Below are positions 6,758 to 31,424 of a stretch of DNA of 64,000 nucleotides, piece by piece (positions within the stretch are counted from its first letter, which is position 1; each line of letters opens with the position of its first letter). The position numbers were made by a program, and so were the translations under genes. The notes beneath the pieces are model-generated. The model was not told where the DNA came from. It saw only the letters and a list, made by a program, of their open reading frames with translations, and ran no database searches. This DNA is from Luteitalea sp. TBR-22 (GTDB lineage Bacteria > Acidobacteriota > Vicinamibacteria > Vicinamibacterales > Vicinamibacteraceae): the NCBI RefSeq assembly GCF_016865485.1, contig NZ_AP024452.1, positions 3,246,501 to 3,310,500 on the forward strand, written 5' to 3'.

Positions 6758-8635
6758 TCAGAGGAGCCCGCGGGTCCCGAGGGCCTCCTCGAGCTGGTCG
6801 ACCAGCGTGTCGAGGAGGGTGGCGACGGCGCCGACGGTCGACGGCTCGGCGAGGTCGATCCCCGCCTGCTGCAACAACGCCATCGGGTAATCGCTGCCGC
6901 CGGCGGCCAGCAGCTCCAGGTAGCGGGCGATCGTCGCCTCGCGCACCGCCGGGTCGCCGTCGCGCAGGCCCACGAGCAGGCGCGCGCTCGTGGCGTAGCA
7001 GGTGGCGTACTGGTAGACGTAGTACGGCGAGCCGAAGAAGTGCGGGATGCGCGCCCAGGTCACGCGCGACAGCGCGTCGTAGTCGATGGCGTCACCGTGG
7101 TAGGCGCGCAGCGTCTGGTCGTACAGCGCGCTCAGCCCGTCGGCGGTCACCGGCTCGCCGGCTTCCACGAGACGATGCGCCTGCAGTTCCCAGTCGGCGA
7201 ACATCACCTGCGTGAAGAAGGTGCCGGTGATGCCGTCGATCGCATGCTGCAGCAGCACGATGCGCTCGAGCGGGTCGGTCGCGTGCGCGAGGCGGTAGTC
7301 GAGCAGCAACGCCTCGCTCAGCGTCGAGGGCACCTCGGCGACGAAGATCGTGTAGTCGGAGTACACGAAGGGCTGCCGCTCGTGCGACAGCACCGTGTGC
7401 ATCGAGTGTCCCATCTCGTGGGCCAGCGTGAACGCGGCGTCGAGCGTGTCGTTGTAGTTCATGAGCACGTACGGGTGCACGCCGTAGACCGGCGCCGAAT
7501 AGGCGCCCGAGCGCTTGCCGTCGTTCTCGTAGATGTCCACCCAGCGACGGGCGAAGCCGTCGGCGAGCCGCTGCTGGTAGGTCGGCCCGAGCGGCGCCAC
7601 CGACTCGACGATCCACGCGACCACCTGCTCGTACGGGTAGTGCTCGCGGAAGTCGACCAGCGGGATCGAGCCGTCGTACAGGTGGTACGTGTCGAGCTTC
7701 AGTGCGCGGCGGCGGAGCTTCTCGTAGCGCTGGAAGGCGCCGACGTTGGCGCGCGCCGAGGCGATCAGGTTCTCGACGACGGCCACCGGGATGTTGTCGC
7801 CGTGCAGCGCGGCCTCGAGGGTCGTCGCGTAGCCACGCGCCCGGGCCTGGTACCAGTCACGCTGCAGCACGCCGTTGTAGAGCGCCGCGTAGGTGTTGAT
7901 CGACGCCTCGAAGGCGCCGTGGTGCGCCTCGAACGCCCGCGCGCGGTCGGCCTGCACGCGGTTGGTCGCCAGCAGCGCGCGATAGCGCGGGTAGGTCACC
8001 TGCACCTGCTCGCCGGTGCTCAACTCGATCGTCGGGAAGCGCATGTCGGCCGTCGACAGCGCCTCGTAGGCGTCGTCGGGCACGCGCGTCAGCTGCGCCG
8101 CCAGCGACAGCAGGTGCTCGCCACGCTCGTCGAGGACGTGTTCCTGCTGCCGGAACAGGTTCTCGATCATGAAGCGGTAGACGGCCAGGCCGGCATCGGC
8201 GTCCATCCAGGCACGCAACGTGTCGAGTGGCACGGCCAGCAGTTCGGGGTTGAACCACGCCGTCGCCTGGCGCCACTGCGCGAACAGCAGCTGCACCTGT
8301 TGCCGGCGGGCCCCGACCGCGTTGTCGCGCTGATCCTCGTCGTGGGCCAGCGAGGCGAAATACCAGACCTTGTAGGCCAGCTGCCCCATCGTGTCGGACT
8401 CGCGCAGGGCCTCGAGCAGCGCACCCGGTCCCGAGGCCAACGTCCCCTTGCGCGTCGCATAGCCGCGGACGCGTCCCTCGAGGTCGTCGAAGGCGGCCTT
8501 CCAGGCCTCCCACGACGGGAAGATGTCGGCGAGGTTCCAGCGTTCCGCTTCGGGCACCTCCGCACGCGCCCGGGAGCCTCCGGGAGCCGAGGCGAACGTG
8601 GTATCGAGCGTGGGGTCCGGCACGAAGACAGTCAC
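6758..8635 (-). CDS. pepF: Oligoendopeptidase F (M3 family zinc metallopeptidase)
   Basis: 625 residues, the normal length for PepF. The zinc motif HEMGH lies near residue 405 in FTLAHEMGHSMHT, with the downstream glutamate in FVAEVPSTLSEALLL. The N-terminal WNLADIFPSWEAWKAAF is also typical of the family. It cleaves short peptides in the cytoplasm; no signal peptide is present. The first codon is GTG at 8635 with a weak GGA upstream. The gene ends nine bases before the threonine dehydrogenase gene, so both may be expressed from the 8.7 kb divergent region. Confidence 0.95.
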   Translation of the reverse strand: MTVFVPDPTLDTTFASAPGGSRARAEVPEAERWNLADIFPSWEAWKAAFDDLEGRVRGYATRKGTLASGPGALLEALRESDTMGQLAYKVWYFASLAHDEDQRDNAVGARRQQVQLLFAQWRQATAWFNPELLAVPLDTLRAWMDADAGLAVYRFMIENLFRQQEHVLDERGEHLLSLAAQLTRVPDDAYEALSTADMRFPTIELSTGEQVQVTYPRYRALLATNRVQADRARAFEAHHGAFEASINTYAALYNGVLQRDWYQARARGYATTLEAALHGDNIPVAVVENLIASARANVGAFQRYEKLRRRALKLDTYHLYDGSIPLVDFREHYPYEQVVAWIVESVAPLGPTYQQRLADGFARRWVDIYENDGKRSGAYSAPVYGVHPYVLMNYNDTLDAAFTLAHEMGHSMHTVLSHERQPFVYSDYTIFVAEVPSTLSEALLLDYRLAHATDPLERIVLLQHAIDGITGTFFTQVMFADWELQAHRLVEAGEPVTADGLSALYDQTLRAYHGDAIDYDALSRVTWARIPHFFGSPYYVYQYATCYATSARLLVGLRDGDPAVREATIARYLELLAAGGSDYPMALLQQAGIDLAEPSTVGAVATLLDTLVDQLEEALGTRGLL

Positions 8636-16427: not shown

Positions 16428-16919
16428 CTAGGCGACCGAAGCCGAGCGCCGCTCGGCCGAGCGGTTGGCGTCGCTGCGGGCCAGCAGGCTCACCACGAAC
16501 GGCTCGCCGTCGATGTCGAAGGTCACCCGCGTCACGGCTTCGCTGCCAGGCACGCGAATCGAGTAGTCGCGGCCCTCGACGACCGCGGGCAGCGACAGCT
16601 GGCAATGCCCGTCGAGCAGCGCCTTGACGTTGCCACCGGTCATGTTGGTGAGTTCGCCCACCGCGTCCTGCATGTCCTCGAGCGAGGCCGAGGCCTCGGG
16701 CACCTCGAACATGACCGCCGCCGCCCGCCGCGCCACGTGCTCGGGCACCTGCAGCACGAGGGCGCCGGCCCACGCACCGGTGATGTTGATCACCCCGTCG
16801 AGCGTCCGCCCTCCGGGCATCGGCGTCACGGGCGTGTCGTGAGGCGTCGCCTCGAGGTTCAGGGTCGCACCCCAGATGTACTGCGTCAGGGAGATGATTT
16901 CCTGCTCCAGGTACTGCAT
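16428..16919 (-). CDS. cheX: CheX-type CheY-P phosphatase
   Basis: 163 residues with the CheC/CheX/FliY fold. The catalytic ExxN signature is intact in VGELTNMTGGNVKALL, and the substrate-facing strand region VVSLLA follows. CheX dephosphorylates CheY-P to end the signal, which fits a chemotaxis operon lacking cheZ. It is the last gene of the operon, 18 bases after cheR, with GGAG five bases before its ATG, and is followed by a strong hairpin. Confidence 0.9.
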   Translation of the reverse strand: MQYLEQEIISLTQYIWGATLNLEATPHDTPVTPMPGGRTLDGVINITGAWAGALVLQVPEHVARRAAAVMFEVPEASASLEDMQDAVGELTNMTGGNVKALLDGHCQLSLPAVVEGRDYSIRVPGSEAVTRVTFDIDGEPFVVSLLARSDANRSAERRSASVA

Positions 16920-16937: not shown

Positions 16938-17783
16938 CTAGGCCAGGGCGCGCAGCGCCGGCTGCGGCTCCGAAGAGATGCGGTAGCAACCGGTCTTGCT
17001 GTACGGCAGCCGCTCGAACCGGTCGTCGAGGTTGCGCGTCGTCTCGGCGGCGCCCAGGAAGAGGAAGCCGTCCTGGCGCATCGCCGTCCGGATCCTCGAG
17101 AGAATGGCGCTCTTGTCGACCGTGTCGAAGTAGATGAGCACGTTGCGGAGGAAGACGATGTCGGGCGCGGTCATGGCCGGCAGCGGCTTCATCAGGTTCA
17201 GGTACTCGAAGCGGACCATCGAGCGCAGCTTCTGGTTGATCTGCCACTCGAGGCCCTTCTTCTCGAAGTACTTCACCAGGTGCGTCGCGGGCAGTCCGCG
17301 GTTCACCTCGAGCTGCGAGTAGAGGCCGTTGCGGGCGCGCGTCAGCACGTCGGTCGAGATGTCGGTGGCCAGGATCTCGACCGTCCAGTTGGCCAGTTCC
17401 GGCATGTCGAGCAGCGTCATCGCGATCGAGTACGGCTCCTGTCCCGTCGAGGACGCGCCGCACCAGATGTGGAGTCGCCGGGTCGCGCGACGGGCTTCCA
17501 TCATCGCCGGCAGGACTTCCTTCCGCAGGACCTCGAAGGGCTCGATGTCACGGAAGAAGATGGTCTCGTTGGTCGTCATCGCCTCGACGACCTTGACGTG
17601 CAGCGGGCCCTTGGGACCGACCAGCTTCGCGATGAGTTCTGCCGACGAGGCGAACCCTTCGCGTCGGGCCAGCGGGCTGATGCGCGCCTCGACCAGGTAT
17701 TCCTTGCCCTGCTCGAGCACGATACCGGCTTCCGCGCGAATCAGGGTCCGGACGATGTCGAACTCTGCCTGGGTGATCGCCAT
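16938..17783 (-). CDS. cheR: Chemotaxis methyltransferase CheR
   Basis: 281 residues. An N-terminal helical CheR domain is followed by the SAM-binding fold: RRLHIWCGASSTGQEPYSIAM (motif I region), ILATDIS, LRNVLIYFD and FLFLGAAETT. CheR methylates glutamates of chemoreceptors. Both soluble MCPs of this operon are candidate substrates. The ATG is two bases after the cheB stop codon; a GTG six bases earlier is possible. There is no C-terminal pentapeptide-binding beta subdomain that I can identify. Confidence 0.96.
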   Translation of the reverse strand: MAITQAEFDIVRTLIRAEAGIVLEQGKEYLVEARISPLARREGFASSAELIAKLVGPKGPLHVKVVEAMTTNETIFFRDIEPFEVLRKEVLPAMMEARRATRRLHIWCGASSTGQEPYSIAMTLLDMPELANWTVEILATDISTDVLTRARNGLYSQLEVNRGLPATHLVKYFEKKGLEWQINQKLRSMVRFEYLNLMKPLPAMTAPDIVFLRNVLIYFDTVDKSAILSRIRTAMRQDGFLFLGAAETTRNLDDRFERLPYSKTGCYRISSEPQPALRALA

Positions 17784-17785
17784 GC

Positions 17786-18937
17786 TCACACCACTTCCGT
17801 GCGACGGCTGTCGCGGGGGATCACCGGCTGGGATGCGATCCAGCCGGTCGTCGTAGTCGCAGTCACGCGCCGCGTGATCTCTGCGGCGATGTCCGGCAGC
17901 GGCAGCACCTTGTCGGCGAGCCCCGCGCGGACGACGAATCCGGGCATGCCCCACACGACGCTGCTGGCCTCGTCCTGTGCCAGGACCTGCCCTCCGGCAT
18001 CGCGGATGCCCTCGCACCCGCGCAGCCCGTCCTGCCCCATGCCCGTGAGGATCACCCCCAGCGTGCGGTGGCCGTAGAGGGCCACCACCGACCGGAACAT
18101 GGGATCGACGGCGGGCCGGCAGGAGTTCTCCGGCGGGTCCTGGTTGAGTGCCACGCGCACCTCCGTGCCCTGGCGCTCGAGCACCATGTGGTAGTCGCCG
18201 GGCGCGATCGTCACCGTCCCCGGCGTCACGAGCATGCCGGGGGCGCCTTCGCGTACCTCGAGGGGCGATTGCTGGTTCAGTCGCTCGGCCAGCAGCCGCG
18301 TGAACATCGGCGGCATGTGCTGCGTGATCACCACCGGCACCCGCAGGTCGGCCGGCAGGGACGGGATGAGCGCCGCCAACGCGTTCGGCCCTCCCGTGGA
18401 CACGCCGATGGCGACGATCGACGGGCGCGCGTCGCCGAGATGCGACGGGCGAGCCGACGTGGCGGCGCCCCGGGGCGCCGGGGGAACGGGCGGCGCGGTC
18501 GGCCTTGCAGCCGCCACCGGCACCACGATCCGGCCCGCCAGCGTCTTGATGCGCGGGATCAGGTCCTCGCGGACGCGCTGCTGCGCGAGCGCCACGCTGC
18601 CGACGTTGGCCGGCTTGGTCACGTAGTCGGAGGCGCCCGCCGCGAGGGCATCGAGCGTCGCCGTGCCGCCACGCTCGGTGAGCGTGCTGAACATGATCAC
18701 CGGCAGCTTCGGGTACGTCGGCCGCAGCGCGCGGACGGTCTCGATGCCGTTGAGCTCCGGCATCTCCACATCCATCGTGACGACATCGGGATTGACCTGC
18801 GGGATCTTCTGCAGGGCGATGCGGCCGTTGGCCGCGGTGCCGACCACCTCGATCTCGGGATCGTCGGCCAGCGCATCGGAGACCAGTCGCCTCACGACGA
18901 CGGCATCGTCCACGATGAGCACACGGATGCGGGACAT
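17786..18937 (-). CDS. cheB: Chemotaxis response regulator methylesterase CheB
   Basis: 383 residues. The receiver domain has its phosphoacceptor Asp56 in VVTMDVEMPELNG and KPANVG after it. A proline/alanine-rich linker follows, then the CheB methylesterase domain with the serine in GVSTGGPNAL, the histidine in ITQHMPP and the aspartate in ILTGMGQDGL. It removes methyl groups from chemoreceptors when phosphorylated by CheA. It sits between cheY and cheR in the operon. Confidence 0.97.
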   Translation of the reverse strand: MSRIRVLIVDDAVVVRRLVSDALADDPEIEVVGTAANGRIALQKIPQVNPDVVTMDVEMPELNGIETVRALRPTYPKLPVIMFSTLTERGGTATLDALAAGASDYVTKPANVGSVALAQQRVREDLIPRIKTLAGRIVVPVAAARPTAPPVPPAPRGAATSARPSHLGDARPSIVAIGVSTGGPNALAALIPSLPADLRVPVVITQHMPPMFTRLLAERLNQQSPLEVREGAPGMLVTPGTVTIAPGDYHMVLERQGTEVRVALNQDPPENSCRPAVDPMFRSVVALYGHRTLGVILTGMGQDGLRGCEGIRDAGGQVLAQDEASSVVWGMPGFVVRAGLADKVLPLPDIAAEITRRVTATTTTGWIASQPVIPRDSRRTEVV

Positions 18938-18956: not shown

Positions 18957-19325
18957 CTACTGGGTCAGTCCGAGCAGGCGCAGCTTGTCCGCGATCACGT
19001 CGCGCGTGAAGGGCTTCATCACGTACTCGTTGGCGCCGGCGCCGAGGGCGCGGGCCATCTGCGACATCTCGGTCTCGGTGGTCACCATCATCATGCGGAG
19101 GTTGGCAAACCGCGTGTCCTGCCGCACCGCCTCCACCAGCTCGAGCCCGTTCATCTCCGGCATGTTCCAGTCGACCAGCGCGAGATCGGTGTCCTCGTGC
19201 TGCTGCAGGTGGGTCAGGGCCTCGCGGCCATGCCCCGCCTGTGCGACCTCGAAGCCGAGGTCCTGCAGCATCCGGGACAGCATCAGGCGCATGGCCCGGG
19301 AATCATCAACGACGAGTGCTTTCAT
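18957..19325 (-). CDS. cheY: CheY-like single-domain response regulator
   Basis: 122 residues, receiver domain only. VVDDSR holds the acidic pocket, Asp52 in LALVDWNMPEMNG is the phosphoacceptor, TTE and KPF complete the active site. LVDWNMPxMNG and EMSQMARALGAGANEYVMKPF are typical of CheY proteins that bind the flagellar switch, which here comprises FliM and the FliY-like protein. The gene starts four bases after the hemA-like stop codon, so it shares its transcript with the globin receptor and the HemA paralogue. Confidence 0.93.
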   Translation of the reverse strand: MKALVVDDSRAMRLMLSRMLQDLGFEVAQAGHGREALTHLQQHEDTDLALVDWNMPEMNGLELVEAVRQDTRFANLRMMMVTTETEMSQMARALGAGANEYVMKPFTRDVIADKLRLLGLTQ

Positions 19326-19329
19326 AATC

Positions 19330-20577
19330 TCATCCCTGCACGGTGACGCGCGCGGCGGGGCCGCCGGGTGTCCCTGGATACCCTGCCGCCTTGGCGCGCA
19401 GGGCCACGACCTGTCGATGCAGCAACTGACGGCCCGCCCGCCGGAGGCGCGCGTCGAGGTGCACCTGCGCCCGGCCAGCCCGCCCCCACAGCCTCGCCGC
19501 CATCTCCTCGCGGCGGGCCCGTTCACGCGCGTACAGTCCGACGATGGCCGGCACGAGCGCGCGCTCCCTGTGCCAGGCGGTCCAGCCTTCCACCGCCGCG
19601 TCGACCAGGCGACGGGCCGCGGGCACGGCCGACTCGCGCGCCGTCAGGGCCGCGTCCTGCCGCGCCCGGATGTCGTCGATGGTGAAGACCCGCGCCTCGA
19701 TGTCGGCGTCGACGTTGCGCGGCACGCCGAGATCGCAGACCACCAGGCGCGATGGCCGGTGGCCCTGGCGTGCGGACGAGGCGCTTCCGGCGAGTGCGAG
19801 CATGGCGGAGGTCAGGACCGGCACCGAGGTACCGGTCGCGCCAATTACAACATCGGCATCGGCGAGCCAGTCCTCCAACTGCGGCACCACCGCGCCGCGG
19901 CCGCCGACGTGGGTGGCCAGCTCGGTGGCCCTGCCCCGATCCTTGCTGACGATCGTCAGGTCGTAGATGCCGCGCTTGGCCAGGTGGCGAGCCACGTCGG
20001 TCGCCACGGCGCCCGTCCCGATGATGCTCACCCGGCGGGCCAGCGGCGCCGCGTACGCGAGCTGGTGCGCGACACAGCCGCCGATGCTCACGTGCCCGCG
20101 ACCGAGCGCCGTCTCGCGCCGCACCCGCTTGGCCACGGCGAAGGCCTGCTGGAAGGCGCGATGCAGGACGGGCCCGAGCGTGCCGGCCTCGCGGGCCTGG
20201 TCGTAGGCGCGCTTGACCTGGCCATTGACGTGGGCATCGCCGAGGATGGCCGAGTCGAGTCCCGCCGCCACGGCGAAGAGATGGCCGGCGGCCGCCGCGT
20301 CGACGTGGCGCGTCAGCAGGCACGCCGGATCGGTCGCGCGTGCCGTCGGGCGGTCGCGCCGCAGCAGCTGCAGCCAACGCGCGGCGGCGTCCTGGTGGTC
20401 GACCACCAGGTAGAACTCCGTGCGGTTGCAGGTCGAGAGGATGGCGGCCTCGCGCAGCCCCTCGACTTCGCGGGCCCGCGCGAGCAGGGCGCGCGCCGCC
20501 GGCGCGTCGTAGGACAGGGCCACCCGGAGATCGAGGGCCGCCTGACGGAAGTCGACGCCGAGCAGGACGAGGGACAT
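19330..20577 (-). CDS. Divergent glutamyl-tRNA reductase (HemA) paralogue inside the chemotaxis operon
   Basis: 415 residues, the usual HemA length, with the three-domain order of glutamyl-tRNA reductase. The catalytic cysteine is Cys50 in LSTCNRTEFY, and HLFAVAAGLDS, AKRVRRETALGRGHVSIG and DLGVPRNVD are recognisable. Other hallmarks deviate: the N-terminal NHxxAP motif reads DFRQAA, GExQIxGQ reads GDAHVNGQ, and the NADPH loop is GTGAVA. HemA makes glutamate-1-semialdehyde, the first precursor of heme. No other heme or tRNA gene is nearby; it lies between a globin-MCP and cheY with short gaps (56 and 4 bases). It may be the cell's only HemA or a specialised copy. Whether it is active cannot be judged from sequence alone. 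Confidence 0.8.
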   Translation of the reverse strand: MSLVLLGVDFRQAALDLRVALSYDAPAARALLARAREVEGLREAAILSTCNRTEFYLVVDHQDAAARWLQLLRRDRPTARATDPACLLTRHVDAAAAGHLFAVAAGLDSAILGDAHVNGQVKRAYDQAREAGTLGPVLHRAFQQAFAVAKRVRRETALGRGHVSIGGCVAHQLAYAAPLARRVSIIGTGAVATDVARHLAKRGIYDLTIVSKDRGRATELATHVGGRGAVVPQLEDWLADADVVIGATGTSVPVLTSAMLALAGSASSARQGHRPSRLVVCDLGVPRNVDADIEARVFTIDDIRARQDAALTARESAVPAARRLVDAAVEGWTAWHRERALVPAIVGLYARERARREEMAARLWGRAGRAQVHLDARLRRAGRQLLHRQVVALRAKAAGYPGTPGGPAARVTVQG

Positions 20578-20633: not shown

Positions 20634-22925
20634 TCAGTAGCGGAAGCGCGAGATGAGCTGCTGCAGCTCGGAGGCCATGCGCGCCAGGCCCGACGCCGCG
20701 TTCTGCGAGTCGGAGGCGCCGTCGCTCGTGCTGCGCGCCGCCTGGGCGACGCCTGTGATGTTCTGCGCGATCTCGGCGCTGCCGCGTGCGGCCTCGGTGA
20801 CGTTGCGGGCGATCTCGTTGGTGGTGGCCGTCTGCTCCTCCACCGCGCTGGCGATCGTGTTCGAGATGTCGTTGATCTGGTTGATGATCGCGCTGATCTC
20901 GGCAATCGCCTGCGTCGCCCCGCGCGTGTCGCCCTGAATCGCCTCGATCTTCTGGCTGATGTCCTCGGTCGCCTTGGCGGTCTCCTTGGCCAGCTCCTTG
21001 ACCTCGTTGGCGACTACCGCGAAGCCCTTGCCGGCCTCGCCGGCCCGCGCCGCCTCGATGGTGGCGTTGAGGGCCAGCAGGTTGGTCTGCTGCGCAATCG
21101 AGGTGATCACCTTGATCACCTTGCCGATCTCGGCGCTGCTCTCCCCGAGCTTGGCCACGGTGCTGTTGGTGGTCTCGGCCACGCGCACCGCCTGCGTCGC
21201 CACCTTGGCGGCGTCGTTGGCGTTCTTGGCGATCTCGCGGATGCTCGCGCCCATCTCCTCGGTGCCGGTGGCCACCGTCTGGACGTTGCGCGAGACTTCC
21301 TCGGAGGCCGCCGACACGACGTTGGCCTGCGCGGAGGTCTCCTCGGCGTTGGCGCCCATCTGCGTCGCGACCGCCGTGAGTTCCTCCGACGAGCTCGCCA
21401 GGGTCTGCGCGTTGTGGGCGATCGCCCCGACGCTGGCGCGCAGGTCGGCGAGGAACTTCTGCAGCCCCTCGCCCATCTGGCCGATGGCGTCGGCGCCGTG
21501 CACGGGCACCTCGCGCGTCAGGTCGCCGGCCGCCGCGGCATTGACCACGTCGAGGATCGCGTCGACCTTCTGCTGCAGCTCCTGCGCGGCCTGCCGCTCC
21601 CGCTCCCGCGACAGGCGGGCTTCCTCGGCCAGTCGCACGCTGTCGGTGATCACGGCCCAGCTGACCATCGTGCCGACGTACTCGCCCTTGTGGTCGCGGA
21701 CGGCGCTCACCTGCAGCTCGAGGGTCTCCTCGCCGAGGCGGATGTTGGCCTTGTGCGGCAGGTTGGTCGGGTCGGCGAGCATCCGGCGCTGGTGCGACGG
21801 GTTCTTGTGGAAGATGTCGATGTTCTGCCCGAGGATCTGGTCGGCCTTGATGGGCAGGAGGTGTTCGATGGTCTTGAGCGTCGCCTTCGAGGCGGCATTC
21901 ACGTAGCGGATGCAGAGGTCGCGATCCGCGTACATGATGTTGATGGGCGCGCTCTCCATCATGCTCATCACGCGCGCCATCTCGGCCTCGAGCTTCAGCT
22001 TCTCGGTCACGACCGCCCAGGTCGCCATCGCGCCGATGTAGGCGCCGGCGCGGTCGGTGACGGCGTGGACCTCGAGCTCGAGGGTCTCCGGACCGACGTG
22101 GATCTGCGCGTGGTACGGCAGGTTCTTCGGGTCGGCGAGCAGCCGCCGCTGGTGCGCGGGGTTCTTGTGGAAGACGTCGATCGACGTGCCGATCATGTCG
22201 TCGACCTTGACGGGCAGCAGGTGCTCGAGCGTCCTGAGCGTCTGCGTCGACGCCGGGTTCATGTAGCGGAGCGTCAGGTCGAGGTCCACGTACATGATGT
22301 TGATCGGCGCGAGATCGAGCATCGCCGTGTTGCGCGCCAGCTCGTCCTGGATCGTCGCGAGCTGCTCGCGGTACTTCGCGACCTCGCTCTCCCCCGCCAC
22401 TGCCTGCGCCGCCGAGATGTTCTCTTCGGCGACGGCCGCCATGACCCCGCCCTTGAACCGACCGTTGGCCATCGAGGACTCCTTCTTGCGGGAACGCGTC
22501 CCGCCCTGCGGGACCGGGCGCGGCGTCGTGGCCGCGGCCGTGGTGTTGACGACATCCGACTGCAGCGGCGCGACCGCCGCGATCACTTCGGCCACCAGTG
22601 GCGCCGGCACCCCGACCTCGGCGAGGGCGGCCGACAGGTGCGTGGCGACCCGCCCGAAGTCCTCTGCCGTGATCGCCAGGTGCGCGTGCGCCGTCTTCAT
22701 GTCGCGCCCCCGGTACACCTGCGGCCCGCCGAGCGCCTGGATGAAGAAGGCGTTCTGCCGGCCCTTGAGCCAGCGCATGTTGACGCCGGCGAAGTGGGGC
22801 GCGAGGGCCTCGTCGGCCAGGACGCGCACGTAGAACGCGTCGACGGCCGCCTTGATGGCCGGCACGCCGCCGAGGCGCTCGAACAGGGTGGTGAGCGGCA
22901 CGGCCGCCACGGTCGCAGTGGACAT
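20634..22925 (-). CDS. Soluble chemoreceptor: truncated hemoglobin (group I) - PAS - PAS - MCP signalling domain
   Basis: 763 residues with no membrane helix. Residues about 10-120 form a group I truncated hemoglobin close in sequence to mycobacterial GlbN: FYVRVLAD with the B10 tyrosine Tyr32, LKGRQNAFF with Gln57, ALGGPQVY, and the proximal histidine His80 in KTAHAHLAI. Two near-identical PAS units follow (about 201-310 and 321-430, period 120, each with APINIMY and FHKNP-HQRR), then a HAMP-like segment and an MCP domain whose hairpin tip reads [21 protein letters not shown]. Known globin chemoreceptors (HemAT type) use a classical globin-coupled-sensor fold, so this fusion is unusual. It probably senses O2 or NO. 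An internal ATG at 22472, with AAGGAG six bases before it, could yield a globin-free receptor of 612 residues. The chosen ATG has AAGGAG nine bases upstream. Confidence 0.9.
20653..21405 (-). repeat. Long repeat: MCP signalling-domain copy A
   Basis: The 3' part of the globin-receptor gene is almost identical in DNA sequence to 25967-26717 in the second receptor gene, with long runs of unbroken identity. This indicates duplication or ongoing gene conversion between the two receptor genes. Confidence 0.85.
22470..22483 (-). promoter_or_regulatory. Internal ribosome site and start codon within the globin-receptor gene
   Basis: On the minus strand AAGGAG is followed by six bases and ATG, giving a protein that begins MANGRFKGG right after the globin and its proline-rich linker. 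Spacing and strength equal those of real starts in this window. Confidence 0.55.
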
Positions 22926-22959: not shown

Positions 22960-23451
22960 CTAGTGGGCGCGCTCGCCCGCATCGCTGCCGTCGACGACGG
23001 CCGCGCGCTCCTCGTCGAGGAGCAGCAGCAGGCGGTCCTTCAGCTTGTACACGCCGCGCACCAGGTCGCGCGTCGGCCCGGCCAGCGTGTCCGGCGCCTG
23101 CTCGAACTGGGCCTCGGCAACCTCGACGACGTCGCCGATCTCGTCGACCAGCAGGCTGACGACGCCGTCGGACGTGCGGACCACCACGTTCATCGGCAAC
23201 GCGCCGTCCTTGCGGTCGGCGAGCCCGAGGCGGCGCCGCAACTCGATCGCGGTGACGATCTGGCCCCGCAGGTTGATCAACCCCTCGACGACGGGCGGCG
23301 CCAGCGGGATGCGGGTGAGCTCCTGGTACCGGATCACCTCCTGCACCTTGAGCACCTCGACGCCGAAGTACAGCTGGTCCAGCATGAACGTCGCGACCTG
23401 GCGCGGAGGGGTCCGCTGGTCGGTGGCATGGGCGAATTCACTGGGCGTCAT
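22960..23451 (-). CDS. cheW: Chemotaxis coupling protein CheW
   Basis: 163 residues forming the double five-stranded barrel of Che[67 protein letters not shown]. It links receptors to CheA. The ATG at 23451 has GAGG six bases upstream and overlaps no neighbour, though the frame begins just inside the end of cheA. It stands directly between cheA and the globin-receptor gene. Confidence 0.95.
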
Positions 23452-23459
23452 GACGGACC

Positions 23460-25691
23460 TCACGCGACCGCGGCTTCGAAGAGCCCGGCATCGGCGATGA
23501 CGGCATCGGCATCGAGCAGGTCGGTGACCTGCTGCTGCAGCACGGTCGACCCGATGATGCCGCGGCGGCGATGCCGCTGGTCGACCACCACCACCTGCTG
23601 CACGATGTCGACGATGCGCTCGACGATCAGCCCGACGTGCTGGTCGTGGAACGAGAAGACGATGACCTGCAGCGGGTCGACCTGAGCCTCCGGCCGGTGG
23701 AAGTAGCGCGCCAGCGAGACGAGCGGCAGGATCTCGCCGCGGTACTGCACCACGGTCCGGTCGCCCGACTGCTCGAGCAGGCTGCGCGGGAACTCCTCGA
23801 GGCGGGCGACCAGCGACAGCGGCAGCGCCATGCGGTCGCGCTCGGAGGCCTGGAAGACCAGCAGCGTGCGCGTGTCCTCCGAGGTCGACGCGGCGGCCTC
23901 GGAACTCGCGGCGGCGGCGTTGCCGGACGACCGTGTCTCGGAGACGACCTGCGCCATCTGGCCGAGGCCGAGCACGTCGAGGATCAGCGCCACCCGCCCG
24001 TCGCCCATGATCGTCGCGCCGGCGAAGGCGGTGAGGCCCTTGAGCTGCTTGCCGAGCGGCTTGACCACAATCTCCTCGGTGTCGTGCACCGTCTCGACCA
24101 CCAGCCCGAACTGCCGCTGGTCGGCCTTGAGCACCACGATGTTGACCGCATCGTCGGTCGTGTTGACCGGGTCGAGGCGCAGCGCCGAGTGCAGGTGGAC
24201 GAGCGGCAGGAGGTTGCCGCGCAGGCGATAGAACAGCGCCTTGCCGATCCGCTCGATGCCCGACGAGGCCTGCATGCCCTCGAGGCGCACCAGCTCGAGG
24301 AGGCTGACCTGCGGGATGGCGAAGCGCTCGCCGCCCGAGGAGACCATCAGCGCCGGGATGATGGCCAGGGTGAGCGGGATCTTGATCTTGAGCGTCGTGC
24401 CGCTGCCGGCCACGCTCTGGATGTCGACGGTGCCGCCGATCTTCTCGATGTTCGTCTTGACGACGTCCATCCCGACGCCACGGCCCGACACGTTGGTGAT
24501 CTTCTCGGCGGTCGAGAACCCCGGCAGGAAGATCAGCTTGATGACGTCGTGGTCCGAGAGGCGCTGCGACTGGTCGGTGGTGACCAGGCCGCGCTGCAGC
24601 GCGCGCTGCCGCACCTTCTCGGCGGCGATGCCGGCGCCGTCGTCACTGATCTCGATGTTGATCTGCCCACCCTCGTGGAAGGCCCGCAGCCGGATGGTGC
24701 CCTCGGCGCGCTTGCCGCGCGCGATGCGGTCGGCCGGCGACTCGATGCCGTGGTCCACCGAGTTGCGGATGATGTGGGTGAGCGGATCCTTGATCGCCTC
24801 GATGATCGTGCGATCGAGGTCGGTCTCCTTGCCCTCCATCTCGATGCGGACCTGCTTGCCGCACATCGAGGCGAGGTCGCGGACGACGCGCGGGAACTTG
24901 CTCCACACGTTGCCGATCGGCTGCATGCGCGTCTTCATGACGCCTTCCTGCAGCTCGGAGGTGACCAGGTTCAGGCGCTGCGTCGCGTTGACGAAGGAGG
25001 CGTCGTTCTGCGTGGTGGTGAACTGCAGGATCTGGTTGCGCGCCAGCACCAGCTCGCCGACCAGGTTCATCAGCTTGTCGACCAGGCCGACGTCGACCCG
25101 CAGCGAGCTGTCGGACACGGCGCCCTTGCGATCGTCGGTGGTCACCGGCTCGGCGTCCTCGGCATGCGCCACGACGGCCTCGGCCACCGGAGCCGGGGGC
25201 GGCGGGGCCGGTGCGGCCGGCGCGGCGGCGGACGGCACTTCGACGACGGCGGGCGCGGCGACGGGCGGCGCCGCGGGAGCGGCCACCGTCCTGGCGGCCT
25301 GGCCCTTCTGCTCGTTCAGTTCCTGCAGCCGCTGGATGACGGCGGTGTAGTCGGCATCGCCCTCGGCCCCCGTGCTCTCGATGGCCGCCAGGATCTCGCG
25401 GATGGCGTCCACCATGCCCAGCAGGCCCGTGGTGATGTCGGCATCGAGCACCATGTCGCCATCGCGCAGGCGGCTCAGGAGGCTCTCGCCCACGTGGCTC
25501 ACGCCCTCGAGCTTGGTGAAGCCGAGGAAGCCGCAGGTCCCCTTGATCGTGTGGATGGCCCGGAAGACGCTGCCGAGCGTCTCGCGGTTGCGCGGATCCT
25601 TCTCCAGCTCCACCAGGTCCTGATCGAGCCGATCCAGGCCCTCGTGGCTTTCGATCAGGAATTCTCGAATGAGATCGTCGGACTCGCTCAC
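23460..25691 (-). CDS. cheA: Chemotaxis histidine kinase CheA with two CheW-like domains
   Basis: 743 residues. The P1 phosphotransfer domain has His47 in RAIHTIKGTCGFLGF. An Ala/Pro-rich linker replaces a recognisable P2 domain. The dimerisation helix begins RVDVGLVDKLMNLVGELVLARNQ, the ATPase has LTHIIRNSVDHGIE, DDGAGI and SGRGVGMDVV, and a CheW-like P5 domain follows (FAIPQVSLLELVRL). After a Ser/Ala-rich stretch a second CheW-like domain closes the protein (LLVFQASERDRMALPLSLV through YFHRPEAQ). It phosphorylates CheY and CheB in response to the soluble receptors. Tandem CheW domains are known in some CheA proteins and may support unusual array contacts. Confidence 0.95.
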   Translation of the reverse strand: MSESDDLIREFLIESHEGLDRLDQDLVELEKDPRNRETLGSVFRAIHTIKGTCGFLGFTKLEGVSHVGESLLSRLRDGDMVLDADITTGLLGMVDAIREILAAIESTGAEGDADYTAVIQRLQELNEQKGQAARTVAAPAAPPVAAPAVVEVPSAAAPAAPAPPPPAPVAEAVVAHAEDAEPVTTDDRKGAVSDSSLRVDVGLVDKLMNLVGELVLARNQILQFTTTQNDASFVNATQRLNLVTSELQEGVMKTRMQPIGNVWSKFPRVVRDLASMCGKQVRIEMEGKETDLDRTIIEAIKDPLTHIIRNSVDHGIESPADRIARGKRAEGTIRLRAFHEGGQINIEISDDGAGIAAEKVRQRALQRGLVTTDQSQRLSDHDVIKLIFLPGFSTAEKITNVSGRGVGMDVVKTNIEKIGGTVDIQSVAGSGTTLKIKIPLTLAIIPALMVSSGGERFAIPQVSLLELVRLEGMQASSGIERIGKALFYRLRGNLLPLVHLHSALRLDPVNTTDDAVNIVVLKADQRQFGLVVETVHDTEEIVVKPLGKQLKGLTAFAGATIMGDGRVALILDVLGLGQMAQVVSETRSSGNAAAASSEAAASTSEDTRTLLVFQASERDRMALPLSLVARLEEFPRSLLEQSGDRTVVQYRGEILPLVSLARYFHRPEAQVDPLQVIVFSFHDQHVGLIVERIVDIVQQVVVVDQRHRRRGIIGSTVLQQQVTDLLDADAVIADAGLFEAAVA

Positions 25692-25947: not shown

Positions 25948-27942
25948 TTACGCCTTGAACCCGGACACGAGCTGCTGCAGCTCGCTGGCGAGCTTGGCCA
26001 GGCCGGCCGACGCGTTCTGCGAGTCGGAGGCGCCGTCGCTCGTGCTGCGCGCCGCCTGGGCGACGCCCGTGATGTTCTGGGCGATCTCCGCCGTGCCGCG
26101 CGCCGCCTCGGTGACGTTGCGCGAGATCTCGTTGGCGGTCGCCGTCTGTTCCTCCACCGCGCTGGCGATGGTGCCGGAGATGTCGTTGATCTGGTTGATG
26201 ATCGCGCTGATCTCGGCGATCGCCTGCGTCGCCCCGCGCGTGTCGCCCTGGATCGCCTCGATCTTCTGGCTGATGTCCTCGGTCGCCTTGGCGGTCTCCT
26301 TGGCCAGCTCCTTGACCTCGTTGGCGACCACCGCGAAGCCCTTGCCGGCCTCGCCGGCCCGCGCCGCCTCGATGGTGGCGTTGAGGGCCAGCAGGTTGGT
26401 CTGCTGCGCAATCGAGGTGATCACCTTGATCACCTTGCCGATCTCGGCGCTGCTCTCCCCGAGCTTGGTGACCGTGGCGTTGGTGGTGTCGGCGACGCGC
26501 ACCGCCTGCGACGCCACCTTGGCGGCGTCGGCGGCGTTCTTGGCGATCTCGCGGATGCTCGCGCCCATTTCCTCGGTGCCGGTGGCCACCGTCTGCACGT
26601 TGCGGCTCACCTGCTCGGAGGCCGCCGACACGACGTTGGCCTGCGCGGAGGTCTCCTCGGCGTTGGCGCCCATCTGGGTGCTCACCGCCGTGAGTTCCTC
26701 GGCCGAGCTCGCCAGGGTGTCGGCATGGGCCGAGATCTGCAGCAGCAGCTGCTTGAGGCGTTCCTGCTGCCGGACGCGCTCGGTGATGTCGGTGGCGTAC
26801 TTGACGACCTTGAACGGGGCGCCGTTCATGTCGAGGATCGGGTTGTACGAGGCCTGAATCCAGACCTCCTTGCCGCCCTTGCCCAGGCGCCTGTACTCGG
26901 CGGCCTGGTAGCGGCCGGCCCGGAGGTCGGCCCAGAACTGCTGGTACTCGCTGCTGGCCGCGTAGGCCGGCTCCACGAACATGCGGTGGTGCTTGCCCTG
27001 CACCTCGTCGAGACGGTAACCGAGCGTCGCGAGGAAGTTGTCGTTGGCGGTGCGGATGGTGCCGTCGAGATCGAACTCGATCACCGCCTGCGCCTTGCTG
27101 ATGGCTGCGAGCTGGCCTTCGAAGTCGGCGTTGCGGAGCTTGCTCGCCGTGATGTCGGTGGCGAACTTGACGACCTTGAACGGGCGGCCGTTGAGGTCGA
27201 AGATCGGGTTGTAGGAGGCCTGGATCCAGACTTCCTTCCCGCCCTTGCCGATGCGCTTGTACTCGGCGGCCTGGAACTTGCCGGCGCCGAGGTCGGCCCA
27301 GAACTGCTGATACTCGCGGCTCTGCGCGAACGCCGGCTCGACGAACATCCGGTGGTGCTTGCCCTGGATCTCGTCGAGGCGGTAGCCGAGCGTGGTGAGG
27401 AAGTTGTCGTTGGCGGTACGCACGGTGCCGTCGAGTTCGAACTCGATCACCGCCTGCGCCTTGCTGATGGCCGCGAGCTGGCCGGCATAGTCGGCGCTCT
27501 GCAGCTTGCTCTGGGTCGTGTCGGTGGCGTACTTGACGACCTTGAACGGCTTGCCGTCGGGTCCGATGATCGGGTTGTAGGAGGCCTGGATCCAGACTTC
27601 CTTGCCGTTCTTGCCGATCCGCTTGTACTCGGCGGCCTGGTACTTGCCGGCGCGCAGGTCCGACCAGAACTGCTGGTACTCACGACTGGCCGCGTAGGCG
27701 GGCTCAACGAACATGCGGTGGTGCTGCCCCTTGATCTCGTCGAGGCGGTAGCCGAGCGCATGCAGGAAGTTCTCGTTGGCGCTGATGATCGTGCCGTCCA
27801 TCTCGAACTCGATCACGGCCTGGCTCTTGTCGAGCGCGGCCAGCTGTCCCCGCAGGGTCAGGAGTTCGAAGTCGGCGTCGTGTGTCTGGTCGGTCTGTTG
27901 TGAACTCAGGGCCAATGCGCCCCGGTTCCTCGGCGTTCCCAT
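25948..27942 (-). CDS. Soluble chemoreceptor with three tandem PAS domains
   Basis: 664 residues, no membrane helix and no HAMP segment. Three PAS units repeat with a period of 122 residues ([10 protein letters not shown] at 41, [10 protein letters not shown] at 163, [10 protein letters not shown] at 285), each with [28 protein letters not shown] and [11 protein letters not shown]. These units resemble the PAS domains of cytoplasmic, cofactor-binding receptors, but the ligand is unknown. The MCP domain follows from about residue 400 with the same hairpin tip as the globin receptor. The ATG at 27942 has GGGGAGG nine to ten bases upstream. It is the first gene of the chemotaxis operon. Much longer readings upstream are a shadow frame. 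Confidence 0.93.
25967..26717 (-). repeat. Long repeat: MCP signalling-domain copy B
   Basis: Partner of 20653-21405. Identity falls off abruptly at both ends, where the receptor-specific sequences begin (HAMP-like in the globin receptor, a short linker here). Confidence 0.85.
26766..27864 (-). repeat. Three tandem 366-base PAS repeats
   Basis: The receptor gene contains three consecutive copies of a 366-base unit coding for the PAS domains, with long identical stretches between copies. They arose by in-frame tandem duplication and can recombine to change the PAS number. Confidence 0.8.
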
Positions 27943-28202: not shown

Positions 28203-29900
28203 TCAGAGCCCGATGGCGGTGCCACTGCCGGCCCGCTCGCGGAGCACGCCCTGCAGGTGCTGCTCCACGCGGCCGAACTCCGCGCACACGGCCTCGGCCA
28301 TCGTCGCCAGCGTGGCGGCCGGCGCGCCACTGTGGCCGGCCTGTTCGAGCCGGCTGGCCAGTTCCTGCAGGTACGAGGCGCCCAGGTTGCCCGCGCTGCC
28401 CTTGACCGAGTGCGCCACGCGGGCCACCGGCCCGGCCTCGAGCGGCCGGCCGCGCAAGTCGCGCAGGCGCTCGGGCGTGTCGCGCAGGAACAGCGACACG
28501 AGTTCGACCACCAGGTCGGGCTCTCCCGGTTCCTGGAGCGAGGCGAGCATCTCGAGCACTTCGGCATCGACGGGAGGTGGCAGGGGCTGGGGCATGTCCA
28601 TCGGGGTCGTCCTCGGGGCGGCGGCGGGTGCGGCCTGGGCTGTCGACGGCAGCCGGGGCGCGGGCACGGCGCGCAGCGTGGTCATGAAGCGGAGGTCCTG
28701 GGCCGGCGTCGCGTAGCACACCCGCATGCCGGGCGCGTCGCGATCTGCATCGCGGCCGATGCGGGCCACGACCGGGTCGCCGATCGACACCTCCTCCCCG
28801 CGCTGCCGGAGCGCGGTCTGGAGGCGGCTGCTGATGATCGTGGCCATCTCGCCCAGGGTGGCCGACACGTCCGCGTCGGTCACCACGTCGCCGGCCTGCA
28901 GGTACTGCGCGGTCATCCGCTCGCTCATGGCGCGCGGCGCGCAGATCAGGAACTCGAGGTCGCAATCCTCGCGGTCGAGCCGCAGCGCGACCCGCACGAG
29001 GTCGTCGCCGGGCGCGGGCGGCTGGCTGCTCGGCGTGGCGAGCACTTCGATGCCGAGCATCATCCCGAAGACCTGCTCGGTGGCCGAGATCATCTGCGGC
29101 CGCAGATCGGCCCGCGACGCAAGGGCGCGCTGCTCGGGAGGCTCCTCGACGACGAGCCGCGCGAACTGCTGCCGGAAGCTCTCGGCGACGAAGGTCCGCT
29201 GCAGCACGGCGTCGGCGTCGACGACCGGCTGGTTGACGTCGCCGGTCACCGCCGCGACGACGCGGACCGACGACAGTTCGGGCAGGCTGCGCAGCTTGCG
29301 CAGCAGCATCGGCGTGGCGATGGCCCCGAGGTCCTGCCCGACGATCACCAGCGACGGGCGCTGGTCGAGGCAGGTCCGCAACCCTTCGGCCCCGGCCGCC
29401 GCCTCGACGACGATGTAGTCACGCAGGCTCTCGCGGACCATGCGTCGGAAGTCGGCGTCGCCGTCGACGACCAGGACGCGCGAGCCCTTGGGCACGCCCG
29501 AGAGGCTGCGCGAGGGCTGGCCGGGCGACGCCTTGAGGCGCGCCAGGATCTCCTGGATGCGGTCGGCCACGTCCAGCGGCCGCAGCGGCTTGGCCAGGTA
29601 GGCCGAGATGCCGTGACGCACCAGTTGTCGCACCTTCGACTCGTCGCGAACCGACGAGAGCACGATGACCGGCAGGTGTCGCAGCGACGGCGTGCGCCTG
29701 ATGGCCTCCAGCGTCTCGATGCCGTCCATGAGCGGCATCATCACGTCGAGCACGACGAAGTCCACCTGCTGCCGGCCCAGCAGGTCGAGCGCCTCGAGGC
29801 CGTTGGTGGCTTCACTGACGGTGCAACCGGCTTTCCTGCGCAGGATCCGGGACAGGAGCAGGCGCACGTTCGGCTGGTCGTCGACGATCAGGGCCTTCAT
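28203..29900 (-). CDS. REC - pseudo-REC - CheX-like - Hpt signalling protein
   Basis: 565 residues in four modules. An active receiver comes first (1-125; Asp52 in [17 protein letters not shown]). A second receiver-like domain (about 135-250) has Gly-Gln in place of the phosphoacceptor ([10 protein letters not shown]). A CheX-like domain (about 265-410) begins [21 protein letters not shown], but its ExxN phosphatase signature reads EMAT. The C-terminal Hpt domain has its histidine in [13 protein letters not shown]. The paralogue at 30012-31307 lacks the Hpt but keeps ExxN. The protein could pass phosphate between its receiver and Hpt and bind CheY-P or the motor through the CheX part. A sigma-28-like promoter lies 58 bases upstream. 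Confidence 0.85.
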
Positions 29901-30011: not shown

Positions 30012-31307
30012 TCAGGACGCCGAGGCGCCAGCCGTCGTCGGCGCGTGGCGCGGCACCGGGCGCAGATAGGCCGTGAACCGGATGTCGCCCGCCGCGTTGT
30101 GGAAGCCGACGCCCGCCCAGGTGTCGGCCACGGCCAGCGTCTCGGCCAGCACCGACACCAACGGCAGGCCGATGGTCACCTCGTCGCCGCGGCCGCGCAG
30201 GGCGTTCTGGAGCCGTCCGCTGATGATGTTGGCCACCTCCTGCAGGGTCGATGCGACGTCCTCGTCGGTGACGACCTCGGCACCTTGCAGGAAGAGCGCC
30301 GTCATGCGCTCGCTCATCTCGCGGGCCGTCGCCACGCCGAACTCGAGGTCGCTGTCCTCGGCCGGCAGCGACAGCACCACGCAGGCGTGGTCGGCACCGG
30401 CGGCCGGCGGCGGCGGCTCGACGGCATCGGCGAAGACCTCGATGCCGAGCATCATCCCGAACACCTGCTCGGTCGCCGAGATCATCTGCGGGCGCAGTTC
30501 CGGGCGGGCCAGCAGCACCCGCTGCTCCGGCGAGCCGCCGGTGACCAGGCGGGCGAACTGCTTCTTGAACGCCTCGGGGACGAAGGTGCGCTGGATGATG
30601 GCGTCGGCATCGGCCAACGGGGCCTCGTTGCCGCGCGAGCCGGCGACCACCACGGGCACCGAGGCCAGGGTCGGCAGGCTGCGGAGCTTGCGCAGGAACA
30701 GCGGCGCCGGCACCGCGCCGAGATTCTGTCCGAGCAGGATGGCGGCGGGCCGACCGTCGAGGCAGGCCCGCAGGCCCTGCGCGCCGCCCTCCGCTTCGGC
30801 GATCACGTACTGGTGGCCGAGCGTCGACCGCACGAAGTGTCGGAAGTCGGCATCGCCGTCGACCACGAGGATCTGGGCGCCATCGGGCAGCCCGAGCAGC
30901 GTCCTCCCCTGCCCCTGCTGCGGCGCGTGCGTGCTCGCGCCGAGCGAGGCCACGAAGCGCTGCACGCGCGCCGACGCGTCCGAGGGACGGAGCGGCTTGG
31001 TCAGGTAGGCGCTGACGCCGAGCGACACCAGCTGGCGCACCTGCGCCTCGTCGCGCACCGCCGACAGCACCATGACGGGCAGGGTGCGCAGTTGCGGCGT
31101 GTTCCTGATCGCTTCGAGCGTCTCGATGCCGTCCATGATCGGCATCATGATGTCGATCACGACGAAATCGAAGTGGTGACGAGCCAGCAGGTCGAGGGCC
31201 TCGATGCCGTTGGTCGCCTCGGTGACCGCGCAATCGACCTCGCGCCTGAGGATGCGCGACAGGAGCAGGCGAACGGTCGGTTCGTCGTCAACGATCAGGG
31301 CTTTCAC
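30012..31307 (-). CDS. REC - pseudo-REC - CheX-like protein with intact phosphatase motif
   Basis: 431 residues, collinear with the first 400 of the 28203-29900 protein. The receiver has its phosphoacceptor in FVVIDIMMPIMDG and KPLRPS. The pseudo-receiver again has Gly-Gln (ILLGQNLGA) in place of aspartate. In the CheX-like domain the signature EVANIISG keeps ExxN, so CheY-P phosphatase activity is possible. The first codon is taken as the GTG at 31307 because the paralogue starts at the same residue (KALIVDD). No clear Shine-Dalgarno is visible, and a GTG at 31361 is the alternative. It is a duplicate of its neighbour with divided functions. Confidence 0.85.
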   Translation of the reverse strand: MKALIVDDEPTVRLLLSRILRREVDCAVTEATNGIEALDLLARHHFDFVVIDIMMPIMDGIETLEAIRNTPQLRTLPVMVLSAVRDEAQVRQLVSLGVSAYLTKPLRPSDASARVQRFVASLGASTHAPQQGQGRTLLGLPDGAQILVVDGDADFRHFVRSTLGHQYVIAEAEGGAQGLRACLDGRPAAILLGQNLGAVPAPLFLRKLRSLPTLASVPVVVAGSRGNEAPLADADAIIQRTFVPEAFKKQFARLVTGGSPEQRVLLARPELRPQMISATEQVFGMMLGIEVFADAVEPPPPAAGADHACVVLSLPAEDSDLEFGVATAREMSERMTALFLQGAEVVTDEDVASTLQEVANIISGRLQNALRGRGDEVTIGLPLVSVLAETLAVADTWAGVGFHNAAGDIRFTAYLRPVPRHAPTTAGASAS

Positions 31308-31424
31308 GGTGTGCGCGTCGGCGGCGTGGGGAGGTCGCGGCGCTCCGCGGGCGCCGGCCACGCGGCTCGAGGGTTACATTACCATCCTTCGATCCGACAG
31401 CGGCGGCTGGCGCGAGCGAGTGCG

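Follow-up and report, generated by a model that had tools for sequence, protein, structure and literature searches.

A chemoreceptor of Luteitalea sp. TBR-22 joining a group I truncated globin to two Aer2-type PAS domains, a predicted heme-based gas receptor

Introduction

Where would a gas be sensed in a chemoreceptor that carries both a truncated hemoglobin and two PAS domains in the same chain? This question is raised by a gene on the minus strand (20634..22925, stop codon included) of a 64,000-nucleotide stretch of the genome of Luteitalea sp. TBR-22 (phylum Acidobacteriota; contig NZ_AP024452.1, positions 3,246,501 to 3,310,500), which we refer to as the window. The encoded receptor has 763 residues, with the order truncated globin, PAS, PAS, a possible HAMP and the signalling domain of methyl-accepting chemotaxis proteins (MCP), and it lies within a che operon. 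We lean, on balance, towards a gas chemoreceptor that is heme-based and cytoplasmic and would have three heme sites, a tethered globin, two products and a heme supply aided by a hemA gene of the same operon. Since two likely heme-PAS units are joined in this protein, and its relatives carry a globin in other chemotaxis proteins, the receptor is predicted to help cells, probably, to steer by O2 or nitric oxide (NO). Beside the globin family of HemAT, the locus shows a second one taken up into chemotaxis, here joined to a known type of heme-PAS sensor in one chain, and its predictions can be tested directly: three hemes, two products of translation and a dedicated heme-synthesis gene.

The combination of Bac_globin, PAS and MCPsignal was reported in silico in 2018 to occur in seven proteins across 8,075 genomes, with aerotaxis as the proposed role of Cc_4972 of Corallococcus coralloides (Sharma, Parales and Singer; PMC6194562). 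The window receptor has these three Pfam families in one protein within a che cluster and, as far as the accessible part of that paper describes the architecture, is a further member of it. The initial annotation of the window, made from the sequence alone, had considered a truncated-globin receptor to be a separate invention; its recruitment apart from HemAT is well founded, given the match to Bac_globin and the lack of Protoglobin, but the architecture itself has been in print since 2018 (PMC6194562). In the accessible part of the same paper the seven proteins include no Acidobacteriota, the PAS domains are not assigned to the Aer2 type, and neither an internal start nor a globin in CheA is described.

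Results

An unbroken frame encodes the receptor

The receptor gene starts at the ATG at 22925, with the sequence AAGGAG 9 bases upstream, and runs to the stop codon that ends at 20634 without an internal stop; an alternative in-frame ATG further upstream, at 22982, falls within cheW. Counting from this second ATG (782 residues), Pfam identified Bac_globin at 32-145 (E 4e-22), PAS_4 at 222-328, PAS_10 at 340-441, a weak HAMP below the cut-off at 474-515 and MCPsignal (PF00015) at 586-749 (E 6e-34); all other residue numbers refer to the 763-residue form. The globin domain covers approximately residues 13-128 (22542..22889) and is followed by a linker of residues 131-174 (22404..22535), PAS1 (21993..22337), PAS2 (21633..21977), the HAMP match (21438..21563) and the Pfam core of the MCP signalling domain (20736..21227). 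The coordinates given for the gene in the initial annotation are correct, and the strand, which it did not state, is minus.

A frameshift between the globin and the receptor part, which the same annotation had named as a finding that would undo the fusion, was not observed: the frame is open throughout, and the same kind of fusion is present in a genome of the same genus, G362. A frameshift or an assembly artefact was rejected on these grounds. In G362 the fusion follows CheA and CheW at one contig end (L043/L106), and HemA, CheY, CheB, CheR and CheX lie at another (L157); the two ends are apparently the same operon split in two. An error of assembly is unlikely because this genome carries the same fusion together with the matching parts of the operon.

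The AlphaFold model of the receptor, obtained with a 24-row alignment, had a mean predicted local distance difference test (pLDDT) score of 79.5, with values mostly of 86-94 in the two PAS units and one long helical region at residues 480-762. Residues 131-174, which connect the globin to PAS1, were predicted to be disordered (pLDDT <50). The MCP part of the model superimposed on chain 8c5v_I of an E. coli array (Z 16.7, root-mean-square deviation (rmsd) 2.3 over 272 residues; VIA-align), and the operon also encodes CheA, CheW, CheB and CheR, in agreement with an MCP output.

The PAS units and the globin point to three heme sites

The search with the PAS1 sequence at E <=1 returned three PDB matches, all of them Aer2 heme PAS domains (6ceq, 5e-16; 4hi4, 5e-14; 3vol, 8e-13), and the structure of PAS2 matched V. 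cholerae Aer2 6ceq (Z 16.1, rmsd 1.5, 101 residues; VIA-align) and 4hi4 (Z 14.6). In alignments counted by hand, Trp303 (PAS1) and Trp423 (PAS2) fall on residue 283 of Aer2, and His253 (PAS1) and His373 (PAS2) fall on His234, which a 2026 review gives as the heme ligand of Aer2 (PMC13401364). The histidine was present in 132 of 141 PAS rows and the tryptophan in 139 of 141, these rows having been picked by a model built from the two PAS of the window receptor, which are themselves counted twice. Judged by these matches, both PAS units are of the Aer2 type with the predicted heme-ligand His and the Trp, and consequently three heme sites are likely in the receptor, one in the globin and one in each PAS. 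Because Aer2-type PAS domains are known heme O2 sensors, as described in the accessible part of PMC13401364, the sensing of O2 need not reside in the globin. The likeness to Aer2 receptors comprises the PAS subfamily with its heme-ligand His and the MCP output; according to the same part of this source, the number of PAS is two in V. cholerae Aer2 and three in the V. vulnificus and L. interrogans proteins. The differences are that five HAMP domains are present in Aer2 of P. aeruginosa, in contrast with the single weak HAMP match of the window receptor, and that Aer2 is described there without a globin.

The globin was assigned to group I of the truncated hemoglobins, resembling mycobacterial GlbN, in the initial annotation, and Pfam, the PDB sequence match and the predicted fold all agree with this. 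In sequence it matched M. tuberculosis HbN (1idr, E 4e-29), with 45% identity and an rmsd of 0.7 over 115 columns to 1idr_A; the model aligned with HbN 1s56 with Z 22.6 and rmsd 1.6 over 122 residues (VIA-align). The Z values were 20-22.6 for group I chains (M. tuberculosis, Tetrahymena, Paramecium and Shewanella), 13.8-20.4 for Chlamydomonas globins and 14.8-17.9 for group II and III chains. The prediction gave a confident globin fold (pLDDT 86-96 over residues 11-120), which by structure comparison is the 2-on-2 fold of truncated globins. The group I signature, consisting of Phe B9-Tyr B10, Phe CD1, Gln E11, His F8 and the Gly motifs, was also present. As had been proposed, Tyr32, Leu53, Gln57 and His80 align with B10, E7, E11 and F8 of HbN; the two globins share these residues as well as those at E14 and E15, and differ in that HbN is a stand-alone protein and not part of a receptor.

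We scored the pocket residues of 13 N-terminal globins fused to MCP, the window included; L155, L156 and L159, which were found later, are outside this set, and matches with E >1e-8 were excluded from it. The F8 His was kept in 13 of 13, and B10 Tyr and E11 Gln in 12 of 13 each, with L010 as the lone exception for both. The window globin retains Tyr B10, Gln E11 and His F8, as does L043, its counterpart from the same genus, which is the same contig match as G362.

The receptor resembles HemAT and other globin-coupled sensors in its N-terminal globin, its C-terminal MCP output and its predicted gas sensing. The HemAT globin is a Protoglobin, according to the accessible part of PMC6194562, whereas in the window receptor a Bac_globin is followed by a linker predicted to be flexible and by two PAS units, ahead of the MCP part. 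Bac_globin was the sole globin family found in the receptor, with no match to Protoglobin in Pfam at E <=0.01, and it is the only match to this family in the 6.47 Mb single-contig genome. Protoglobin PF11563 had no match in this genome either, while 10 of 14 control genomes, B. subtilis included, did match. Membership in the HemAT-type globin-coupled sensors was therefore rejected.

The linker contains an internal start signal

Within the linker we found the ribosome-binding hexamer AAGGAG (22479..22484) six bases ahead of an in-frame ATG at 22472, which corresponds to Met152 (MANGRFKGG). The full hexamer with the 6-base spacing is common to six of the 16 N-terminal fusions (the 13 first found plus L155, L156 and L159): the window, L002, L004, L017, L018 (Nitrospirales) and L026, which keeps the hexamer and has GTG in place of ATG. 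It was not found in the three later-found fusions, and five-base forms of the site occur in L019, L024 and L155.

In the 16 fusions, the full hexamer accompanied six of the 50 ATG/GTG codons of the linkers versus six of the 709 elsewhere. One of the six sites elsewhere is the start of the window gene itself, four, in L024, L026 and L156, are located towards the N-terminus and are possibly the starts of these genes, and one lies in the body of L002. The six-base match was present in none of 15 control CheA linkers. It was used as the criterion because only this form is specific against the CheA controls; the five-base criterion, although it gave p 1.4e-4 in the MCP linkers, was rejected as a clean test since the control linkers were enriched too. 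A first run on the ribosome site, with 13 proteins, had given 9/41 versus 22/451. With this internal signal, translation probably begins at two sites in the gene, with a predicted product of 612 residues from Met152 (20634..22472; PAS-PAS-HAMP-MCP, without the globin) beside the form of 763 residues.

The che operon includes a second hemA

The order of the operon on the minus strand, with all assignments from Pfam, is a second MCP with three PAS_3 domains (25948..27942), CheA (23460..25691; no globin was found in this CheA), CheW (22960..23463), the receptor, HemA (19330..20577), CheY (18957..19325), CheB (17786..18937), CheR (16938..17783) and CheX (16428..16919). The six che products that the initial annotation had placed around the receptor were all recovered, and hemA, located between the receptor and cheY, was absent from its list. 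In the Cc_4972 cluster, ABC1 and ABM genes occupy the place that hemA and cheY have in the window, as depicted in the accessible part of PMC6194562.

The genome contains two glutamyl-tRNA reductases, that of the operon being 40% identical to the other copy. HemA acts on glutamyl-tRNA in the first committed step of heme synthesis. A whole-protein scan of genome contigs confirmed 553 loci, and the best 80 of these were analyzed; HemA was found beside heme-PAS receptors in nine of the 80. The receptors of seven of these nine loci have two Aer2-type PAS and those of L026 and L030 have one. HemA is also present in G362 (L157) and beside L159, and in L004, L018, L155 and L156 no HemA separates the receptor from CheY.

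Fused globins occur in several phyla

Among the best 80 of the 553 loci, 12 encode an N-terminal globin, PAS and MCP in one frame (L002, L004, L010, L017, L018, L019, L023, L024, L026, L030, L043 and L065; L023 and L043 are cut). The globin is C-terminal, after the MCP domain, in L070, and lies inside CheA in a single case, L058. In L022 and L031, from Nitrospinaceae, a separate truncated globin frame of 125 codons (7935-8309) overlaps the terminal part of an MCP frame that has three PAS. Of the 64 globin-less loci, 32 have a related receptor beside at least three kinds of che gene. The search for truncated globin and MCP in one chain, which had been suggested as a check, yielded in total the window and 15 other proteins with an N-terminal fusion, distributed in several phyla.

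Genome samples were also searched with PF01152, and only long frames were fetched; the following counts are lower bounds and, as the genome at the center of each sample had been chosen for having a fusion, not unbiased rates. In the phylum of the window, at least 85 of 396 genomes have PF01152, and the fusion to MCP appeared, among the long frames, only in the genome of the window and in G362. The corresponding values were at least 71 of 245 for the phylum of L018 (labelled Nitrospirales; fusions in G398, G910 and G979), at least 45 of 240 for the phylum of L019 (labelled Verrucomicrobia; G404), at least 62 of 148 for the class of L023 (G411 and G1354) and at least 202 of 311 for the phylum of L010 (labelled Polyangia; G401). 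In this last phylum, nine further long frames, eight with a globin match, showed no fusion to MCP. The long Bac_globin frames L158, L160-L167 and L169 had no MCP or CheA match, L115, L126 and L137 had no other Pfam match at 1e-5, and L116 (G357) and L168 did not match the globin profile.

Other arrangements were observed in these frames. In the phylum of the window, two frames of G368 combine a truncated globin with ankyrin repeats (L113 1582-3081 and L114 1784-3397, both on the minus strand), and neither showed a chemotaxis partner. In the phylum of L010, three frames have three tandem truncated globins each (L162 97-2142, +; L165 4093-5496, +; L166 4100-5539, -). The truncated globin is at the C-terminal end of a long frame in L160 (3795-5891, +), and it is also C-terminal in L126 (3477-5267, -) and L137 (2078-3067, +), in which the rest of the frame has no Pfam match at E <=1e-5.

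Truncated globins are also found inside CheA and CheW

The class of L058 (labelled Alphaproteobacteria) was sampled by fetching the frames of at least 450 residues, with L058 and L065 also included. PF01152 is present in at least 106 of its 337 genomes, and in at least 14 of the 337 (G396, G397, G449, G471, G493, G499, G503, G507, G576, G607, G619, G673, G709 and G715) Pfam placed a globin in CheA between Hpt and H-kinase_dim, that is, between P1 and P3, the site of P2 in E. coli CheA. The proteins of G397 (L111) and G607 (L128) end after the dimerization domain at contig ends; examples of globin-bearing CheA are found at L058 1188-4187, L125 4198-7314 and L129 3116-6154. In L112, the second CheA of G397, the globin was recognized by our own profile (2e-13) and a weak family match, not by Pfam at 1e-5. 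Two CheA proteins (L123 2-2620, -; L124 2354-5953, +) have two truncated globins, the second one inside the CheW-like domain. The model of L058 (mean pLDDT 66) matched HbN-type structures with an rmsd of 1.5. In contrast to the MCP-fused globins, only nine of 15 CheA globins have the F8 His; another residue occupies this position in L112, L133 and L135, and a gap does so in L130, L132 and L134. Judging from these proteins, a gas-binding domain may be located in the kinase itself.

In the globin tree, which left out eight rows (two fragments and six group II sequences), the duplicates L106 and L140 and the matches with E >1e-8, the window globin groups with L043 (100/99) and L002 (99/89). The globins of CheA, CheW, L070, L065 and Nitrospinaceae, together with five others, are set apart from the acidobacterial MCP-fused ones (99/94). 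The starred branches force at least two changes for the MCP-fused globins, in a tree whose bootstrap had not settled.

Truncated globins fused to a protein kinase, a nitrate reductase and other domains are known, and the accessible part of that report names no chemoreceptor or CheA among the multidomain truncated hemoglobins (PMC7082302). In searches of the open-access literature, to which subscription papers such as the Hade 2017 review do not belong, we recognized no report of a CheA with a truncated globin, nor of the Aer2 assignment, the internal start, the link to hemA or the CheW, C-terminal and separate-gene globins.

Proposed mechanism and alternative explanations

In the reading that we favor, the two tandem Aer2-type PAS units would bind heme and report O2 via HAMP to the MCP hairpin, which would control CheA/CheW and, through CheY, the flagellar motor. 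A flexible tether about 45 residues long would carry the HbN-like globin, which would add a second gas response, either to very low O2 or to NO reacting with bound O2, an input proposed by analogy from the HbN-like pocket and the chemistry of HbN. The globin would act through gas chemistry in its vicinity or by touching PAS/HAMP, and not through a rigid helix. Receptors with and without globin, made from the two starts, would share one array, and the extra hemA of the operon would help to supply heme. The disordered linker and the free position of the globin among relatives (both ends of MCP, CheA, CheW and a separate frame) fit a gas module on a tether better than a rigid sensor like that of HemAT.

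Several observations weigh against this reading. The Fisher p of 4e-5 for the hexamer in the linkers overstates the independence of the sequences, which are related, and 10 of the 16 fused proteins do not have the full hexamer; moreover, the five-base form appears in four of the 15 control CheA linkers, in all cases with GTG (Fisher p 0.004). The only HAMP match is weak (E 0.0012, below the Pfam cut-off). The predicted template modelling score of 0.33 means that the arrangement of the domains is not predicted, and the linker that would have to couple the globin to the MCP part is predicted to be disordered. HemA accompanies four of the 16 loci with globin versus five of the 64 without it, in a set where many loci are cut by contig ends, and a tie of HemA to the globin was rejected because of these five.

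HbN turns over NO as an NO dioxygenase, and NO dioxygenation requires an electron donor. The globin could be a tethered gas-handling enzyme or buffer, which would destroy NO or hold O2 near the PAS hemes and leave signalling to the PAS units; we regard this as possible, at a rather low probability. The HbN-type pocket (Tyr B10, Leu E7, Gln E11), the predicted flexibility of the linker and the lack of a common geometry among the N-terminal, C-terminal (L070), CheA, CheW and separate-frame (L022, L031) positions are in line with it. However, a scan of nine proteins around the gene showed no flavin or ferredoxin reductase, and the retention of globin-like domains without the ligand His in six of the 15 CheA proteins (three of them as a gap) fits a structural or signalling role there better than an enzyme. 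If the globin were instead the main O2 sensor driving the MCP, with the PAS as relays, the arrangement would be that of HemAT, with a globin at the N-terminus, an MCP at the C-terminus and an intact pocket. We consider this unlikely: direct coupling is doubtful because residues 131-174 are predicted to be disordered, both PAS keep the His and Trp of Aer2, and half of the globin-less loci (32/64) still have a related receptor among che genes. A decaying globin that fails to bind heme seems highly improbable: CheA relatives do include globin-like domains that lack the ligand His, but the window, L043 and 12 of the 13 scored globins all retain Tyr B10, Gln E11 and His F8.

The two-product part of the favored reading has its own competitor, in which a gene fusion left the internal start behind as a relic and the 763-residue form is the sole product. 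The peptide that follows the internal Met, MANGRFK, is similar to one near the start of the unfused relative L076 (MAVSNGRFK), the only unfused receptor with such a motif among those compared, and the linkers of L030 and L065 have no start signal at all, as a relic would allow. The hexamer and its 6-base spacing are, nevertheless, kept in six proteins, even in L026, which has GTG instead of ATG; hence the relic is a possibility to which we give limited weight. More broadly, we would only tentatively propose that chemotaxis arrays use the HbN-like globin as a portable gas module, which tunes them by local O2/NO chemistry near Aer2-type receptors, here with an internal start and its own heme-synthesis enzyme, and that some CheA globins lost heme and became domains for protein contact.

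Other genes upstream of the operon

A MotB-like gene is located near the che operon, upstream of it. Upstream of the operon there are also two adjacent genes for REC proteins (28203-29900 and 30012-31361, minus strand); one of the proteins ends in Hpt and one has a CheX-like part.

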